Assembly: GCA_036268875.1 (NCBI GenBank)
Contig: DATATI010000036.1
Coordinates: 62,001 to 126,000, forward strand
Length of the DNA stretch: 64,000 bases
Origin: Polyangia bacterium
GTDB taxonomy: Bacteria; Myxococcota_A; Polyangia; Fen-1088
Direction of reading: 5' to 3'
Part shown: one piece after another, positions 4,501 to 32,927 of the stretch
Numbering within the stretch: the stretch's first letter is position 1
How the letters are laid out: every line of letters starts with the position of its first letter
The notes under the pieces: model-generated
The model's input: the letters and a program-made list of their open reading frames with translations, nothing else
Database searches by the model: none
What the model was told of the DNA's origin: nothing
Translations under genes and position numbers: made by a program

Positions 4501-5433
4501 ATGAGCCACTCGATCCTGCGTCGCCTGATCCGCTGTTCCTTCGGCGGGATGTTGCTGCTGGCGGGCTGCCACGGCGACGGCCCAGAGCTGGCCGTCGACG
4601 CCGCCAACGGGGGCGGCGCCACGCGTGGCAACGGCGGCAACGCCGGGACCAACGGCAGCGACGCCGGCGGGACCGCGGGCAGCGGCGACGGCGGCGGGAA
4701 GATCCCGGTGGGCAGCACCCAGTGCAGCGACGGCATCGACAATGACGGCGATGGTCTGATCGACTATGACGATCCCGAATGCGTCGGCCCGCTGGACAAC
4801 GACGAAGGATCGTTCGCCACCGGCATCCCGGGCGACAACGTGGATCCGTGCAGGCAGGATTGCTTCTTCGACGGTAATTCTGGCATGGGCGACGATGGCT
4901 GCGATTGGCAGCTCAAATGCGATCCGCTGAACGTCGGCGCCACCGCCTCTCATCAGTGCGCCTATGACGCCAAGTATGTCCAGACCCACGCCATGGAGTG
5001 CTCGGTCAGCGCCTCGCAGTCCGCCGCTTGCATCAAGAATTGCCGGCCGCTGACGCCGAACGGCTGTGACTGCTTTGGTTGCTGTTTGATCCCCGGCGCG
5101 GCGACGGCGATTCGTCTGGCCGGCACGTGCACGGCCAAGGACTTTGGCGATCCCAGCAAGTGTCCGCCTTGCACCCAGGTCCAGCAGTGCAGCAATCCCT
5201 GCGATCATTGCGAGCTGTGCGTCGGCAAGACCACGCTGCCCGCCGATTGCGCCAACAACCCCGGCGACGGCGGCGCGCCCACCCCCGACGCCGGAACGAC
5301 CCCCACGCCGAGCTGCGGATCGTACGCCGTCTGCGCCCGCACGGCGCAAGGGAGCATCGATCCGGTCACCGCTTGTCCGCAGAACTACGGCTGCGTGCAA
5401 GGCTGCTGCATCCCGACCGTGATCATCCCATAA
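4501..5433 (+). CDS. Cys-rich lipoprotein with Gly/Asn linker
   Basis: A 310-residue predicted lipoprotein. The ATG at 4501 opens a signal peptide with lipobox LLAGC (Cys at about residue 23), then a Gly/Asn/Asp-rich linker, then [18 protein letters not shown], the Ca-binding-like DNDGDG motif common in myxobacterial surface proteins. The remaining 200 residues carry more than 25 cysteines ([31 protein letters not shown]), consistent with a disulfide-rich extracytoplasmic domain. No enzymatic family is recognised. A likely bidirectional hairpin separates it from the convergent sensor kinase at 5467. Confidence 0.85.
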
Positions 5434-5467
5434 GGCCGGCGGCGGCGTTGGCTTGGGCGGCCGGCCT
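5433..5467. terminator. Candidate bidirectional hairpin between convergent genes
   Basis: The arms aggccgg (5433-5439) and ccggcct (5461-5467) are perfect reverse complements (7 bp) around a 21-nt GC-rich loop, filling the gap between the lipoprotein stop and the convergent PAS-kinase stop. There is no T tract, so it may be a weak terminator or an RNA-stabilising 3' hairpin. Confidence 0.4.
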
Positions 5468-6948
5468 CATCCATGGCTCGGGCCGAAAGGAATTTCGAAC
5501 GCGAACATGGCGCCTTGTCCGGGGCGGCTGTCGACCCGGATGGTTCCTTCGTGGGCGTCGATGATCTGTTTGCTGATCCACAGACCCAGGCCGAAGCCGC
5601 CGAAGTGACGGCTGGAGACGCCGCGCTCGAAGCGTTCGAAGATGCGTTTTTGTTGCTCGCGCGGAATGCCGATGCCGCGATCGGCGACCGACAGGCGCGC
5701 CAGCGGGCCTTCGACGCTGACCACCACGTCGATGGGTTTGCCGGCGCCGAACTTGATCGCGTTGGCGAGGAGGTTGGTCAGCACTTGTTCCAGGCGCAGG
5801 CGATCCCAGCACCCCACCGCCGTCGCTGGGGCCGATAGCTGCAGCTCGCATCCGGCGGCGGTGGCGGCCGCGCGCATGGTTCGCACCACGTCCTGCACCA
5901 GCGTCACCAGGTCCATCTCTTTGCGCTCCAACTCCAGCCGGCCGGCCGACAGGCGCGAGATGTCCAGCAAGGTGTCGACCAGGCGGGTCATGCGTCGCAC
6001 GTGGCCGCCGGCGCGTTCCAGATCGGCGGACAGCCGCCCGTTGGCCAGGTGTTCGGCGCCGCGCTTTTGCACCATGCGATCCATGTTCTCGACCTGCAGC
6101 TGCATCGCCGCCAGCGGCGTGCGCAGCTCGTGCGAGGCGATGGACAGGAATTCATCGCGCACCCGCACCGACGACAAAAGCTCAATCTCCAGGTTCTTGC
6201 GTTCGGTGATGTCGATGCAGGACCCGATGTATCCGGCGAAGCGGCCACTGGTGTCATAACGGGGCGTGCCGCGATCGAGGATCCAGCGGTACTCGCCGTC
6301 GGCGCGGCGCAGGCGATACTCCATCTCGAATAATTGTCGATGGCGGAAGGCGGTCATGTACGTGTCGACGCAGTCTTGAAAATCTTCGAAGTACACGCCC
6401 TCCGCCCAGCCCACGCCCCACTCCTGCTCCAGCGTGCGGCCGGTGAAGGTCAGCCAGGTCTGGTTGAAGAACGTGCACAGCGCGCTGGTGTCCGACATCC
6501 ACAGCAACACCGGCGCCACATCGGCCATGATCTTGAAACGCGACTCGCTCTCCTGGACGTGCTGCTGTATCTGCCGCTGCTCGGTCACGTCGCGCACGAT
6601 GGCGATGACACCGATGGTGTCGCCTTGATCGGATCGCCAGGGCGCGTAGCGGCGCTCGCAGTAACCGCTGCGGGCGGCGCCGGCGGCCAGGAAGGGTTGG
6701 TCGCGGGCGGCCACTTCTTCGCCGGCCAGGGCGCGGCGAATCGACGTCAGCTCCTGGTTCTCGACCAGGAATGGCAACAGCTCGGGCGCTGGTTTTCCCA
6801 CCGCGTCGTCGGCGGTGGTGCCCAGCAATCGCTCCATGCCGCTGTTCCAGTAGCAACAGCGCAGCTCAGGATCGAAGACCGCCATGCCCTCGGCGCTGGC
6901 GATCACCAGCTGCCGGGCCAGATCAACGGGCAGGGGTGCCTGGCTCAT
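5467..6948 (-). CDS. Soluble PAS-domain sensor histidine kinase coupled to the monooxygenase operon
   Basis: A 493-residue kinase with no membrane segment. Two PAS-type sensor domains come first (about residues 10-125 and 135-260, the second with a PAC-like end containing GYIGSCIDITERK), then a HisKA domain with the H-box SIASHELRTPL, then a HATPase domain (NLLANAIKF, DRGIGIP, FGLGLWI). The ATG at 6948 overlaps the stop of the monooxygenase beta-subunit gene (ATGA), so it is probably translated with that operon. By analogy with TmoS/TodS, a PAS kinase next to a toluene monooxygenase may sense an aromatic inducer, but this protein is far smaller than TodS and no partner regulator is visible nearby. 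The real start is the coupled ATG; a longer in-frame extension lies inside the upstream gene. Confidence 0.92.
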   Translation of the reverse strand: MSQAPLPVDLARQLVIASAEGMAVFDPELRCCYWNSGMERLLGTTADDAVGKPAPELLPFLVENQELTSIRRALAGEEVAARDQPFLAAGAARSGYCERRYAPWRSDQGDTIGVIAIVRDVTEQRQIQQHVQESESRFKIMADVAPVLLWMSDTSALCTFFNQTWLTFTGRTLEQEWGVGWAEGVYFEDFQDCVDTYMTAFRHRQLFEMEYRLRRADGEYRWILDRGTPRYDTSGRFAGYIGSCIDITERKNLEIELLSSVRVRDEFLSIASHELRTPLAAMQLQVENMDRMVQKRGAEHLANGRLSADLERAGGHVRRMTRLVDTLLDISRLSAGRLELERKEMDLVTLVQDVVRTMRAAATAAGCELQLSAPATAVGCWDRLRLEQVLTNLLANAIKFGAGKPIDVVVSVEGPLARLSVADRGIGIPREQQKRIFERFERGVSSRHFGGFGLGLWISKQIIDAHEGTIRVDSRPGQGAMFAFEIPFGPSHG

Positions 6949-28621: not shown

Positions 28622-29680
28622 ATGCGATGGTCCGGACGCGTGCGTTCCTTGATCGGATCGAATTTGGGCACTTGGATTGTCCGCCTGGCGACTGTCGGGG
28701 CGATGGCGTTAACCGCGCAGCCGGCGTTGGCCGATCAGGCAGACGATCTGATTCACAGCGGCTTGGAACTTCGCCGACAAGGGCGCGACCAGGAAGCCCT
28801 TCAGATCTTTCGCAAGGCTCAGGCACTGTCGCCGACGCCGCGGGCTCAGGCCCAGATTGGCCTCGCTGAGCAGGCCGTTGGCCAATGGGTCGATGCCTTT
28901 GACGATCTCGGCGCGGCCTTGCGAGTCAAGAGCGACCCGTGGATCACCAAGAACCGCGCGGTGCTGGAGTCGGCCGTGGTCAGCATCGAAACCCACGTCG
29001 GCGAACTGGAGATCTTGGGCGGACCCTCGGGCGCCGAAGTGACCGTCGAAGGCAAGCCACAGGGAACACTGCCATTACCCTCGCGGCTGCATGCGGTCGC
29101 GGGAACAGCGTCCGTCGAAGTGCGGGCGTCCGGCTTTCTGCCCGCCACCCGAACGGTGGTCATCGTCCCTGGCCAGTTGACCCGCGAGACCATCAACCTG
29201 CGGCCGGTATCCGCGCTACCGTTGCCTTCCGGCGGCGGCTCATTTGAATCGGCGCAAGAGTCCGCGCCATCCACCGGTAACGGTGAGGTCGGCCGTTCAG
29301 CAGAGACTGAGACATCGCCCTGGCCGCGACGAGCAGCCTGGATTGGTGTGGCTGGCGCCGGCGCGTTCGCGATTGGCGGCACCGCGGCTTTGCTGGTTCG
29401 ACAATCAAAAGCGCACTGGTTCGAGGACAAGGCGCATGCGTGCGATGAGAACGCTCCCAACAAGGGAGGCGCTGGCTGTCAAAGCGACTACGACGACGGT
29501 CAGACTGCGACCAAAATGGCGGTCATAGGCTATGTGGCTGCAGGCGCCTTCGCGGCGGGCGCCGCCGTGTTGTTTCTGACGGCGCATTCTGCGGCGGACG
29601 CGCCGAAGAGCACCGCCGTGGGGCTTGCCTGCCTGCCTTCTGTTGGAGGGCTGGGCGTCGCCTGCGCCGCGTGGTTCTGA
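28622..29680 (+). CDS. TPR plus PEGA-domain membrane protein
   Basis: About 352 residues from ATG 28622. A signal peptide (LATVGAMALTAQPALA, cut before DQAD) is followed by a TPR pair (SGLELRRQGRDQEALQIFRKAQ, QAQIGLAEQAVGQWVDAFDDL), then a PEGA domain (GPSGAEVTVEGKPQGTLPLPSRLHAVAG), the beta-sandwich found in many surface proteins, then a Ser/Pro linker and two membrane segments near the C-terminus (AAWIGVAGAGAFAIGGTAALL and MAVIGYVAAGAFAAGAAVLFL). This TPR-PEGA-TM layout is common in myxobacteria; the function is unknown. It lies 29 nt before the Cys-rich lipoprotein and is probably co-transcribed with it. Confidence 0.84.
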   Translation: MRWSGRVRSLIGSNLGTWIVRLATVGAMALTAQPALADQADDLIHSGLELRRQGRDQEALQIFRKAQALSPTPRAQAQIGLAEQAVGQWVDAFDDLGAALRVKSDPWITKNRAVLESAVVSIETHVGELEILGGPSGAEVTVEGKPQGTLPLPSRLHAVAGTASVEVRASGFLPATRTVVIVPGQLTRETINLRPVSALPLPSGGGSFESAQESAPSTGNGEVGRSAETETSPWPRRAAWIGVAGAGAFAIGGTAALLVRQSKAHWFEDKAHACDENAPNKGGAGCQSDYDDGQTATKMAVIGYVAAGAFAAGAAVLFLTAHSAADAPKSTAVGLACLPSVGGLGVACAAWF

Positions 29681-29709
29681 TCGCACGTTGGTTTTCGGGG
29701 AGGACGACG

Positions 29710-30687
29710 ATGTTTAGCAACAGAAGTTGGGTTCGGTCGGCGGTCATTCTGACTGGCACCGCTTGTCTTGTCGGATGCGCGCCGTTTCATGGCACGGGCC
29801 AGGATGCCGGAACCGACACTCGTAAGGATGCTCCCGCAGACTTTCCTGGTCCGTTTGACGGCGGTTCTGAACTTCACGCCGAAACCGGCGGCAACCCACC
29901 GGGTGACGGGCCAGGCAATCTGGAAGTAGGGCCAACAGCAGACGGCGGCCCCACTTCGGACGGCGGGCCCACAAGCCAACAGTGTTCCGGCATAGCCGCG
30001 CAAGCGTGCGGCAACTGTGGGACGCAAACCCGTACTTGCGACACCAGCACAGGAACGTGGTCGGATTGGTCCTCGTGCACCGGGGGCGGCGAGTGCGCTC
30101 CTGGCGCCTCTCAGAATTGTGGCAGCGGCGGAAAACAATCCTGCGGGGGCGATTGCAAGTGGAGCGCTTGCGGCAATCAAACGTGTACAGGCTCAGCCTC
30201 GCAGGGTTGTGGCAAATGCGGCACGCAGACGCGCACCTGCGACAATGCGAACGGAACCTGGTCAGCCTGGTCAGCTTGCGGCAGTGAAGGCGATTGCACG
30301 CCTAGCTCGACACAGGCCTGCGGCAGCGGCGGACAACAATCGTGCGGCGGCGATTGCAAGTGGTCATCCACGTGCAGCGGGCAGACGTGTCCAGGTCCGG
30401 CATCGCAGGCCTGTGGCAACTGCGGCACTCAGAGCCACACGTGCAACAGCAACAGCGGCATGTGGTCCGCTTGGTCGGCGTGCGCGGGCCAAGGCGCTTG
30501 CACCCCCGGCAACTCCCAAGGTTGCGGCAGCGGCGGCACCCAAACATGTGGCGCCAGCTGCACCTGGGGCAACTGCGGCAGCCAGACTTGTAGCGGATTG
30601 CCCAGCATGGCGTGCGGGAAGTGCGGAACCGAAACCCACACGTGCGATAGCAGCACCGGCAGTGGTCGGCTTGGTCCGCCTGCATGA
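29710..30687 (+). CDS. Cys-rich repeat lipoprotein, N-terminal part (frameshifted)
   Basis: 325 residues as read. Lipobox LVGC (Cys about residue 23), an Asp/Gly-rich linker, then about four tandem repeats of 67-68 residues (starts near 30007, 30208, 30412, 30613), each with CGxCGTQTxTCD, a TW-SxWSxC thrombospondin-type-1-like segment, and CGSGGxQxCGxxCxW. In the fourth repeat the expected WSAWSAC reappears in the +1-shifted frame at 30663-30683, so the reading stops early at 30687 after the aberrant GSGRLGPPA. The missing part continues in the ORF starting 30684. A one-base deletion near 30660-30663 explains everything seen. Confidence 0.82.
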   Translation: MFSNRSWVRSAVILTGTACLVGCAPFHGTGQDAGTDTRKDAPADFPGPFDGGSELHAETGGNPPGDGPGNLEVGPTADGGPTSDGGPTSQQCSGIAAQACGNCGTQTRTCDTSTGTWSDWSSCTGGGECAPGASQNCGSGGKQSCGGDCKWSACGNQTCTGSASQGCGKCGTQTRTCDNANGTWSAWSACGSEGDCTPSSTQACGSGGQQSCGGDCKWSSTCSGQTCPGPASQACGNCGTQSHTCNSNSGMWSAWSACAGQGACTPGNSQGCGSGGTQTCGASCTWGNCGSQTCSGLPSMACGKCGTETHTCDSSTGSGRLGPPA

Positions 30688-31526
30688 ATGAAGGGCCGTG
30701 CGTTCCGAACACAACCCAGAACTGCGGCACCGCCGGCGGTTCGCAGAGTTGCGGGTCAGATTGCAACTGGGGAACATGTTCTTGCGTCGGCCCGACGTCG
30801 CAGACGTGCAATTGCACGGGCACGCAGACACGCTCGTGCAACAACGGAAACTGGTCAGGGTGGTCTGCGTGCTCTGGTGGAACCAACACAGGTTCCGATC
30901 CCCAGAATTGCGGCTCGTGCGGTCATTCGTGTACGAGCGGAATTTGTAATGGTGGAACGTGTGGCTGTGGCACCTGCTCGGCCTGCCAGAAATGCGACAC
31001 CACCAGCGGCAGTTGCGTCGCTGCGACCGGCGTTCCCTGCACGGTCGCGAACGGAGGTGGCGCGTGCGACGCCCAGGGCAACTGTACGGCACGTAGCTGC
31101 AATCCGTCGTACGTTCTCTGTTCGGGTACTTGTATTTTGGAAGGCGACCACGTGTGCGGACCTTCCTGCAGCGACTGTTACCTGCCGCCGAACACGACGA
31201 CGCCTCACATCGACATCGCTGCATGTCTGAATCACGCGTGCAAAATTCTCCAGTGCAACAGCGAAGGACCGTTCTGCTCGGGTTGCGGCAAGGTTGCCGA
31301 TTGGGGCGATTGTAACAATGACTGGAAAGATGGCTGCGAGATCGATGTCACGACGGATGCCAACAACTGTAGTGCCTGCGGCGGCTCCTGTTCCTTGTGT
31401 CAGCCCGGTGATTCCACCAACCCGAATCCAGCGAGATTCCAATGTGAACACTGCGAGCCACCTTGTACCGCCTGCAGGAAACATCCTCATTCGGGCGGTC
31501 CCGGCATTTGGTGTGATCCCAGCTAG
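30684..31526 (+). CDS. Cys-rich repeat lipoprotein, C-terminal part (after frameshift)
   Basis: 280 residues with no signal peptide of its own. It resumes the repeat of the preceding ORF exactly in register (the codons before its ATG read WSAWSAC), adds a divergent fifth repeat (NCTGTQTRSCNNGNWSGWSAC) and a Cys-rich C-terminal domain (CGCGTCSACQKCD, CGSCGHSC, DWGDCNNDWKDGCEIDV, CSACGGSCSLC). GDCNNxxxDGCE is a recurrent myxobacterial surface motif. Its ATG overlaps the upstream stop (ATGA), so independent translation is possible, but it is most simply the second half of one gene. Confidence 0.78.
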   Translation: MNEGPCVPNTTQNCGTAGGSQSCGSDCNWGTCSCVGPTSQTCNCTGTQTRSCNNGNWSGWSACSGGTNTGSDPQNCGSCGHSCTSGICNGGTCGCGTCSACQKCDTTSGSCVAATGVPCTVANGGGACDAQGNCTARSCNPSYVLCSGTCILEGDHVCGPSCSDCYLPPNTTTPHIDIAACLNHACKILQCNSEGPFCSGCGKVADWGDCNNDWKDGCEIDVTTDANNCSACGGSCSLCQPGDSTNPNPARFQCEHCEPPCTACRKHPHSGGPGIWCDPS

Positions 31527-31617: not shown

Positions 31618-32358
31618 ATGAAACGATTTGCGGGCGTGGCTATCGCCGGCCTTTTGGGTTTGGAGGCGTGCTGTGGATCGGTCGCCAAGACGACGCGAAC
31701 GCCATCGACGACGGATGCGCTTCTTTGGTCGCCGCATTTGAACCCGGCGTCGGCTGCGGAGGCTCGGGCGCTGCAGGTGCCGTTCACCTCACCGTTTGAC
31801 GTCGTCCTACTTCAGGCCGGTGGTTCACCAAAGCAAGCGACGATCAGTGACTGCAATACCTATTTCGAACTGCGACCCAAGGGCTATGAGCCACTGAGCC
31901 AACCCGATCTCGCCGCGATGAAGATCGAAGGCGCCAACTGTTTCGCCGTCCGGGCGGTTCAAAACGGTCGACCTTCGAACGCGCGGCCCATTCGGCCTTT
32001 TCTGGTTGGCCAGAGGACATTGGCGCGGTTGCCGCCAGCGCTTGGTCCGCAGCCAAATCCGACGGACGCCGCACGCCGCAAACGGGCGACTGCGTCCGGC
32101 ATGTCATGGGCGACAACCGATCCGGCCGCCATTTTGACCGTCACCGACGAGTGGACCGCGCGCGTGAAGGGACCGGATTGGATCACCGACCTTAGTGTCC
32201 TCGTTCAGGGTGATCTGAACGGTGACGGTGTCGACGACGTCTTAGTAGAGACCATCTCGGCCGGCATGGAAGGGAGTTGGAGCGAGGTGCGTCTGCGGTT
32301 GCTCACGAGCGTCCCCAACCAGGACGTCCTCGAGATCCTCGAGGAGTTTGCGCTCTGA
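31618..32358 (+). CDS. Putative lipoprotein of unknown function
   Basis: A 246-residue protein with a signal peptide and possible lipobox LEAC (Cys about residue 18). The body is an unassigned mixed domain; near the end GDLNGDGVDDVLVETISAG resembles a Ca-binding integrin-like (FG-GAP/dockerin-type) loop. The stop is 2 nt from the stop of the convergent T4-type lysozyme gene. An immunity-type role against that lysozyme can be imagined for an envelope protein here, but nothing in the sequence proves it. Confidence 0.72.
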   Translation: MKRFAGVAIAGLLGLEACCGSVAKTTRTPSTTDALLWSPHLNPASAAEARALQVPFTSPFDVVLLQAGGSPKQATISDCNTYFELRPKGYEPLSQPDLAAMKIEGANCFAVRAVQNGRPSNARPIRPFLVGQRTLARLPPALGPQPNPTDAARRKRATASGMSWATTDPAAILTVTDEWTARVKGPDWITDLSVLVQGDLNGDGVDDVLVETISAGMEGSWSEVRLRLLTSVPNQDVLEILEEFAL

Positions 32359-32360
32359 GC

Positions 32361-32927
32361 TCACGGACTGCCCCCCGACGCTTTTAGGAAGAGCGCCTTC
32401 GTCGCCGCGTTCCGTACGGCACTGGCGTCCGGCCTGTTGCTCTGGTCAGCGGCGGTCTTCCAGTCTTGTTTTTCGATCGCCTCATTCAGCTTGGGCCATT
32501 TATTCTTGAGGGCACTGGTGCCAAGGTTGAAAGCCATGTCGAGCATCGCCAGTTGGGCGGGATCTGGATAGGAGTCGTAGCGCGGATATACCTTGCCAAG
32601 CTGCACCTGAAATTCTTGGACCCGTTTCTGAAAGAGGCGGTTCACCTCAACGTCGGGTAGGTCCAGGTTGGTGAACGGCCGGTACCAGCGCGCAGCCTTC
32701 CCTTTGGGCTGTTTCGACACCGTCGCGAAATCGACGGAGATCTCCGCCGCTGTCGCTGCGTTTTTGGTCGTCCTGTTCACGAACGCCAACCGCTGCGCCG
32801 CGGTCACATCCGGAAGCATATTGCCGATGCCCACGGTCACGTAGCCGATGGTGTCGACATACATGTGTGAAATATTGCCTTCAAAGGGCCCTGTTAGCAG
32901 TTTGATTTCATCGAACGCGGGAGCCAT
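32361..32927 (-). CDS. T4-type lysozyme (muramidase) without signal peptide
   Basis: 188 residues from ATG 32927. The catalytic triad of T4 lysozyme is recognisable with identical spacing: E16, then D25 nine residues on, then T31, inside FEGNISHMYVDTIGYVTVGIGN, the counterpart of T4 E11/D20/T26. The later LAMLDMAFNLGTSAL matches the phage-lysozyme C-lobe. It should cut MurNAc-GlcNAc bonds. No signal peptide, holin or other phage gene is near, so delivery would need another route (type VI secretion, lysis or a tailocin). A longer in-frame N-terminus from 33107 overlaps the divergent gene and is rejected. Confidence 0.83.
   Translation of the reverse strand: MAPAFDEIKLLTGPFEGNISHMYVDTIGYVTVGIGNMLPDVTAAQRLAFVNRTTKNAATAAEISVDFATVSKQPKGKAARWYRPFTNLDLPDVEVNRLFQKRVQEFQVQLGKVYPRYDSYPDPAQLAMLDMAFNLGTSALKNKWPKLNEAIEKQDWKTAADQSNRPDASAVRNAATKALFLKASGGSP

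Follow-up and report, generated by a model that had tools for sequence, protein, structure and literature searches.

What is the function of a T4-type lysozyme gene that lies tail to tail with a gene for a small exported protein in the genome of a Polyangia bacterium? Both genes reside in the 64,000-nucleotide stretch of contig DATATI010000036.1 (assembly GCA_036268875.1, positions 62,001 to 126,000) that was analysed here and is referred to as the window. An earlier note on this DNA had suggested an effector/immunity pair, for example for type VI secretion (T6SS), and had considered the convergent orientation unusual for such pairs. Its description of the layout is confirmed, with stop codons 2 nt apart and no other bases between the two genes (Table 1), and the effector/immunity reading is supported by conserved pairing in the genome's own family as well as on plasmids elsewhere. 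We propose that the lysozyme and its partner are very probably a toxin and the corresponding immunity protein.

Table 1. Features of the lysozyme/partner locus in window coordinates.
Feature	Position	Strand	Remark
Lysozyme, 188 aa, T4-type (GH24, PF00959); proposed toxin/effector	32361..32927	-	no signal peptide visible
Exported partner, 246 aa; proposed periplasmic immunity protein	31618..32358	+	family unnamed in libraries searched
Two-base gap, tail to tail	32359..32360	.	between the stops of lysozyme and partner
E16 codon (catalytic Glu position)	32880..32882	-	invariant, alignment A1, 6 rows
D25 codon (catalytic Asp position)	32853..32855	-	invariant, alignment A1, 6 rows
T31 codon (catalytic Thr position)	32835..32837	-	invariant, alignment A1, 6 rows
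Partner signal sequence to L-E-A-C18	31618..31671	+	read by eye; probable lipobox
Partner D-L-N-G-D-G-V-D-D motif, FG-GAP-like (D199-D207)	32212..32238	+	below FG-GAP cut-off

The catalytic residues that the earlier note had assigned to the lysozyme at T4 spacing hold up on alignment. The spacings of 9 and 6 residues match those of E11, D20 and T26, which we take to be the catalytic residues of T4 lysozyme, and none of the three varies among the aligned homologues. The protein scores 34 bits against PF00959 (curated cut-off 22.3); the same profile found nothing at E 0.001 in a six-frame search of the complete genome, and the assignment comes from hmmscan and phmmer of the protein itself. As predicted by AF2 (mean pLDDT 90.1), the fold is that of T4 lysozyme, with the model matching T4 lysozyme chains and fusions at Z 13-14 over 131-150 residues (rmsd 2.3-3.6), and the enzyme is presumably a muramidase. 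Inspection by eye revealed no hydrophobic N-terminus, in line with the claim that a signal peptide is lacking. ATG 32927 is the best start, because the in-frame extension upstream displays a G+C profile of the non-coding type (0.60/0.57/0.55 versus 0.58/0.43/0.72) and because a decayed lysozyme copy in the relative G011 aligns from residue 4 of the window protein (67% over 33 residues). The lysozyme is a bare 188-residue domain devoid of any Pfam delivery domain; the Gly/Pro-rich N-terminal part present in the G005 and G013 lysozymes is missing. This lack tells against the effector reading, as do lysozyme trees of 28 and 21 rows, which did not resolve the window row or place it with the other paired lysozymes.

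The partner had been taken for a lipoprotein. Its hydrophobic N-terminus does resemble an export signal, but the lipobox L-E-A-C18 bears an unusual Glu at -2, so that lipidation is probable rather than certain. Related partners show LFAC at this site in G003 and signal-like N-termini that lack the lipobox Cys in G005 and G013; judged by eye, export-signal-like N-termini are found in the partners of the window, G003, G005, G013, G229 and the Pseudoalteromonas plasmid THAF3. Identities of the other partners to the window row are only 20-27%, a point against the pair reading. Two cysteines (C79 and C108) are conserved in seven rows, and D199, D203, G204 and D207 are invariant in seven rows. Searches of Pfam, NCBIfam and PHROGs returned no family above threshold for the partner: FG-GAP matches below its Pfam cut-off, LprI (PF07007) does not appear among the Pfam matches at E up to 1, and comparison with PDB sequences gave no significant match, only short FG-GAP/integrin-type or chance stretches. 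A known lysozyme inhibitor, LprI or other, was rejected as the identity of the partner for want of a match above threshold in these libraries. Its structural model is weak (pLDDT 65.7; best Foldseek E 0.46) and unusable for fold assignment.

Co-occurrence of the two genes, which the earlier note had named as a check and whose absence would have refuted its idea, is found. Among 59 genomes, the window's own included, seven have lysozyme matches and six have the partner, and all six partner-bearing genomes encode a GH24 lysozyme beside it. In G008 the lysozyme is interrupted by an assembly gap; over its final 53 residues it shares 75% identity with the G003 lysozyme. The two genes are separated by 2 nt in the window and by 47 nt in G003, overlap by 1 nt in G005 and G013, and also overlap in G011. 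The pairs of G003, G005, G008, G011 and G013 are co-directional, with the lysozyme first and the partner second in G003, G005, G011 and G013, whereas the window alone among the six is convergent. Five different surroundings accommodate the six pairs. Only G003 and G008 are alike, with FKBP- and ThyX-like genes (named by eye) around the pair, and in G005 the pair neighbours a gene for a 1433-residue protein; the pair thus seems to be kept together while moving. Decayed copies occur as well: G005 has a partner remnant, broken by stops, immediately ahead of a VgrG gene, and G011 has a partner piece with one stop plus a separate lysozyme piece. With the PilZ neighbour as anchor, no orthologous site was found in the 18 family genomes, and insertion of the pair is thus not demonstrable; this anchor matched in 9 of the 18, and its best foreign match covers only residues 8-234 of 548.

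Profile searches over the class (317 genomes) detected the partner in 10 genomes and the lysozyme in 20. The pair is present in six of these 20, and in one, G002, the lysozyme neighbours LprI. A partner-profile match is absent from the lysozyme loci of G119, G252, G260, G226, G282, G284, G285, G263 and G184, and the lysozyme matches in G018, G303 and G020 are weak; loci that repeat others (L001-L007, L009-L014, L035-L039, L048-L054 and L062) were left out of the partner-profile listing. G117, G123 and G138 were dropped from the partner hits, as they matched at E 1e-4 to 7e-4 over positions 136-241 only. G229 (83% complete) encodes two partner homologues, neither with a lysozyme seen, one full-length (L069 9226-9924, 19 kb inspected) and one truncated at a contig end (L068 9741-10166); this genome gave no match to the lysozyme profile and none to TssC. 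These homologues count against a strict pairing of lysozyme and partner, and may be orphan immunity genes or reflect another use of the partner family. A phylum-wide partner search of 377 genomes matched 23. In all but the window's own genome the match was confined to profile positions 143-237, the FG-GAP-like C-terminal region, within a longer frame, and these 22 were dropped as motif matches. Some of the long frames dropped in these searches scored better when the wider profile A4 was run on a small locus set (L041 of G117, 840 residues, E 7e-20; L153, 546 residues, E 6e-19), which we attribute to repeats of the FG-GAP motif. A lysozyme relative in G019 (L006 1105-2136) has Gln at the catalytic Glu position and a long C-terminal part, and no partner was seen at its locus. 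Frames of 1250-1727 residues with a lysozyme domain near the N-terminus occur at L074 6451-10203, L075 9272-13066 and L077 9026-14209, in genomes that have several TssC matches.

Type VI secretion, proposed in the earlier note as an example of a delivery route, is encoded in the genome. Contig C29 carries TssF, TssE (gp25), ImpE, Hcp, TssC, TssB, TssA and FHA, together with an AAA ATPase gene that is truncated where the stretch ends. The three VgrG genes of this genome lie on C50 and C84, and a VgrG search of the 169-kb contig that holds the pair (C36) found none. In G013, by contrast with the window contig, lysozyme, partner, VgrG, TPR, PAAR and Rhs form a same-strand series in which about 410 bp separate the partner from VgrG, and in G011 the pair is flanked by two VgrG genes. 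Hence two of the six pairs are located less than 500 bp from VgrG, for which a simple model that assumes three VgrG genes per 6 Mb and treats the genomes as unrelated gives a chance of about 1e-4. TssC is not associated with the pair, being present in four of the six family genomes with it versus nine of the 12 without, and was not found in the pair-bearing G003 (92% complete) or G008 (70%). The T6SS idea thus gains from the T6SS genes in the genome and loses from the lack of VgrG on the pair's contig and from a TssC distribution that does not track the pair.

Further lysozyme relatives are encoded close to T6SS-type genes. A Verrucomicrobia MAG (L103) has one between the TssF and TssB/TssC genes. 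The one in Psychrobacter (L100) is separated by three frames from a Tle1-type lipase gene upstream of it, and the gene that comes immediately after it is lipoprotein-like. In G002 a longer lysozyme protein, just under the PF00959 cut-off (21.9 versus 22.3), adjoins LprI (PF07007) in an island that also encodes DUF2169 and VgrG. This arrangement looks like the T6SS hydrolase effectors beside secreted LprI/DUF1311 inhibitors described in the available parts of PMC12135965 and PMC8867033; the window partner differs from these systems in not being LprI. If lysozyme and partner are toxin and antidote, the T6SS is probably the delivery route, which for the window copy itself is inferred.

To look beyond the phylum, the lysozyme was compared by tblastn with 72,556 plasmids, of which 75 records matched and 15 were opened. 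The plasmid of Pseudoalteromonas sp. THAF3 carries, in this order, an Rhs gene, an SMI1/KNR4 gene, a lysozyme 41% identical to that of the window, and a secreted-looking protein whose gene overlaps the lysozyme by 4 nt. In a single BLASTP comparison the latter matched the window partner at E 4e-8 (22% over 176 residues). A tblastn search of the same plasmids with the partner itself found nothing at E 0.01, and THAF3 was reached via its lysozyme. In eight of the 15 opened plasmids, all enterobacterial, the lysozyme gene converges, at gaps of 26-66 nt, on a gene whose product looks secreted and has 199-213 residues; these eight comprise four closely similar copies of a ColE1-type plasmid, one 6-kb Enterobacter plasmid and three of 135-468 kb. 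In another three, a co-directional unrelated partner follows, and then a colicin release lysis gene. Three showed no partner in the stretch inspected, one of them being a fragment among insertion sequences.

When a profile of five convergent plasmid partners was aligned to the family of the window partner, the alignment spanned 152 columns and included both cysteines (hhalign score 36.2, probability 54%, E 1.3e-4); the narrower five-row alignment A2 scored 39.8 against the plasmid partners (probability 72%). None of 400 shuffled controls (200 by column, 200 by block) reached 36.2, the best being 22.4, and a reversed control scored 15.6. Because no shuffled control attains the score, homology of the plasmid partners to the window partner family is well supported at the level of sequence profiles, with a moderate hhalign probability. 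One enterobacterial plasmid lysozyme matches PF16754 weakly and under the cut-off; this is the pesticin family, 'bacterial toxin homologue of phage lysozyme'. The enterobacterial loci L156, L157, L159, L160, L163-L168 and L170 hold bacteriocin-like lysozyme-domain genes annotated as hypothetical, and in CP057811 an in-frame start 68 codons ahead of the annotated one yields a protein of 253 residues. A lone lysozyme occurs in Pseudoalteromonas luteoviolacea and relatives (L085-L090, L092-L095 and L097, at about 5282-6597). In L085 and L086 it is overlapped by an upstream gene for a membrane-anchored protein, and no T6SS gene was recognised by eye within 12 kb; the other loci have the lysozyme frame in the same position.

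These plasmid loci bear on the chief alternative, namely that the two genes are a toxin/immunity pair that uses another route: a diffusible bacteriocin set free when cells lyse, a contact system (Rhs or another), or outer-membrane exchange. The homologous convergent pairs on enterobacterial plasmids are consistent with such a route, as are the Gly-rich N-terminus of the L157 lysozyme (the only plasmid lysozyme inspected in full) and the release lysis gene behind the lysozyme in three opened plasmids, where the partner is unrelated. An Rhs gene ahead of the THAF3 lysozyme and the VgrG-free window contig point the same way. Against this, the bare window lysozyme offers no space for a translocation or receptor part, no Rhs family matched among the ten window neighbours scanned, and two relatives encode the pair beside VgrG. 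We regard another route as a minority possibility, somewhat unlikely yet by no means negligible. A tentative view that we hold at a little below even chance would unite the two settings: the bacteriocin-like genes of enterobacterial plasmids, the Rhs-linked Pseudoalteromonas locus and the T6SS islands of Myxococcota might all carry one exchangeable lysozyme/immunity cassette, whose secreted immunity proteins would form a family not described before; the window copy would have the convergent arrangement of the bacteriocin type, but on a large contig. Two weapon classes would then be joined by a shared toxin together with its antidote, beyond a shared toxin.

How does the convergent orientation compare with known weapons? 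Tse3/Tsi3 is reportedly a T6SS muramidase effector/immunity pair. In contrast to T6SS muramidase pairs, the putative immunity gene of the window is convergent instead of lying downstream on the same strand, and VgrG is neither fused nor adjacent. VgrG3cp/TsiV3cp of Vibrio cholerae, as the available text of PMC9927483 describes it, likewise combines a lysozyme/pesticin-like hydrolase with an adjacent immunity gene in a genome that has a T6SS. The convergent orientation that the earlier note had considered unusual is no objection to immunity, because opposite-strand colicin immunity genes are known. Such genes accompany pore-forming colicins, colicin M and colicin Z, and in the excerpts available to us from PMC6668396, PMC9517006 and PMC5821083 they are typical of colicins that act on the membrane or, as colicin M, hit wall synthesis; the portions of PMC9677677 and PMC5358913 at hand state generally that immunity genes may sit on the same or the opposite strand. 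As in the window layout, colicin M and colicin Z are envelope-acting toxins with a downstream immunity gene on the opposite strand (PMC5821083 and PMC6668396, in the parts available), and colicin Z degrades peptidoglycan, as predicted for the window lysozyme (PMC6668396, same part). Unlike colicins, the window protein has no translocation or receptor part and is encoded on a non-enterobacterial contig of 169 kb. The immunity protein of colicin Z, a four-helix membrane protein without signal peptide in the accessible text of PMC6668396, also differs from the window partner. A further parallel is the X-Tfe XAC2609/X-Tfi XAC2610 pair of the Xanthomonas killing T4SS, in which, according to the available section of PMC10933484, a lysozyme-like effector remains cytoplasmic until transfer and the inhibitor carries a lipoprotein box. 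That pair depends on another delivery system, and PDB 4QTQ is absent from the window partner's matches up to E 10.

Taken together, we consider it likely that the locus encodes a muramidase toxin and a periplasmic immunity protein, with the T6SS as the most likely means of delivery. The lysozyme, made without a signal peptide, would be harmless in the cytoplasm of its producer. As a cargo effector, most likely of the T6SS, it would reach the periplasm of an adjacent cell and there cut the glycan strands of peptidoglycan. The partner, probably lipid-anchored, would be sent to the periplasm of the producer itself, and by binding the lysozyme would protect the producer and its siblings. The muramidase activity, this binding and the delivery route are inferred, and the partner is a candidate immunity protein. 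Such a model may also explain the orientation. A toxin that lacks an export signal and is inactive in the cytoplasm would allow its antidote to be expressed separately, with no need for a shared mRNA, and the convergent layout would be permitted, as in envelope-acting colicins.

A prophage remnant, that is, a leftover endolysin beside an unrelated lipoprotein gene, is a much weaker alternative. The enzyme domain is shared with GH24 phage endolysins: the closest lysozyme by identity is that of the phage contig L108 (48%), PHROG 7 (endolysin) matches at E 1.2e-10, one phage record matches at 28%, and the missing signal peptide resembles holin-dependent endolysins. The 48% identity would fit repeated domain exchange among phages, plasmids and chromosomes. 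The surroundings and the partner tell against a relic. The earlier note's claim of a phage-free context is upheld in that no phage family occurs among the ten neighbours scanned, which include radical SAM, JmjC, GFA and ArsC genes, with the qualification that three of the ten match no family at all. A partner search of 50,697 phage records returned nothing at E up to 0.01, as did one scan of IMG/VR with a single peptide pattern, and the partner has been kept beside such lysozymes in six genomes and on plasmids. With no phage-family neighbours and a partner not found in phages, we judge a prophage relic highly unlikely. Upstream of the pair, the window also encodes a Cys-rich repeat protein (29671-31526, + strand) split over two overlapping frames of 338 and 280 residues; its repeats seem continuous across the junction, indicating either an assembly error or a true frame break.

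A housekeeping role, as a wall-remodelling enzyme with its regulator or as unrelated genes adjacent by chance, would suit a window that itself shows no sign of antagonism and a partner of no known family, and is still less probable, as the patchy spread (seven of 59 genomes for the lysozyme, six for the partner), the decayed copies, VgrG beside two relatives' pairs and the lack of a visible export signal on the enzyme all fit a mobile toxin cassette better. Anti-phage defence was rejected, PADLOC giving no match for four proteins, the window pair and the G013 pair.

Several elements of this reading are established: T6SS effectors of the lysozyme type that have immunity proteins, similar effectors in other systems, and colicins that degrade peptidoglycan are all reported in the available parts of PMC9927483, PMC12135965, PMC8867033, PMC10933484 and PMC6668396. 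In the open-access literature we found no description of the partner family, of its presence in both settings, or of a tail-to-tail pair of the T6SS type. If correct, the toxin/immunity reading would define a new family of immunity proteins against phage-type lysozymes that spans two phyla and two kinds of weapon, and would imply that effector/immunity pairs escape searches that demand operon order, as the antidote here faces its toxin. The enterobacterial versions reside on plasmids of tractable species under hypothetical annotations, which makes the claim quickly testable. In Myxococcus xanthus, T6SS effector/immunity loci are scattered round the chromosome, as the accessible text of PMC10433427 has it, and the window pair would be a candidate for a scattered locus of this type in a relative. 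Separately, two VgrG genes of the window's genome (L081 8394-11697, a locus at 38000-57900 of C50, and L082 7554-10818, at 85000-98688 of C50) have head-to-head neighbours whose products start with a Gly/Pro-rich part (PGPLGR, PGPL). One of these neighbours is a VanY-type carboxypeptidase that looks like a second peptidoglycan effector, and a lipoprotein resembling the neighbour of the VanY gene is, by eye, also found near VgrG in L025 and L071.
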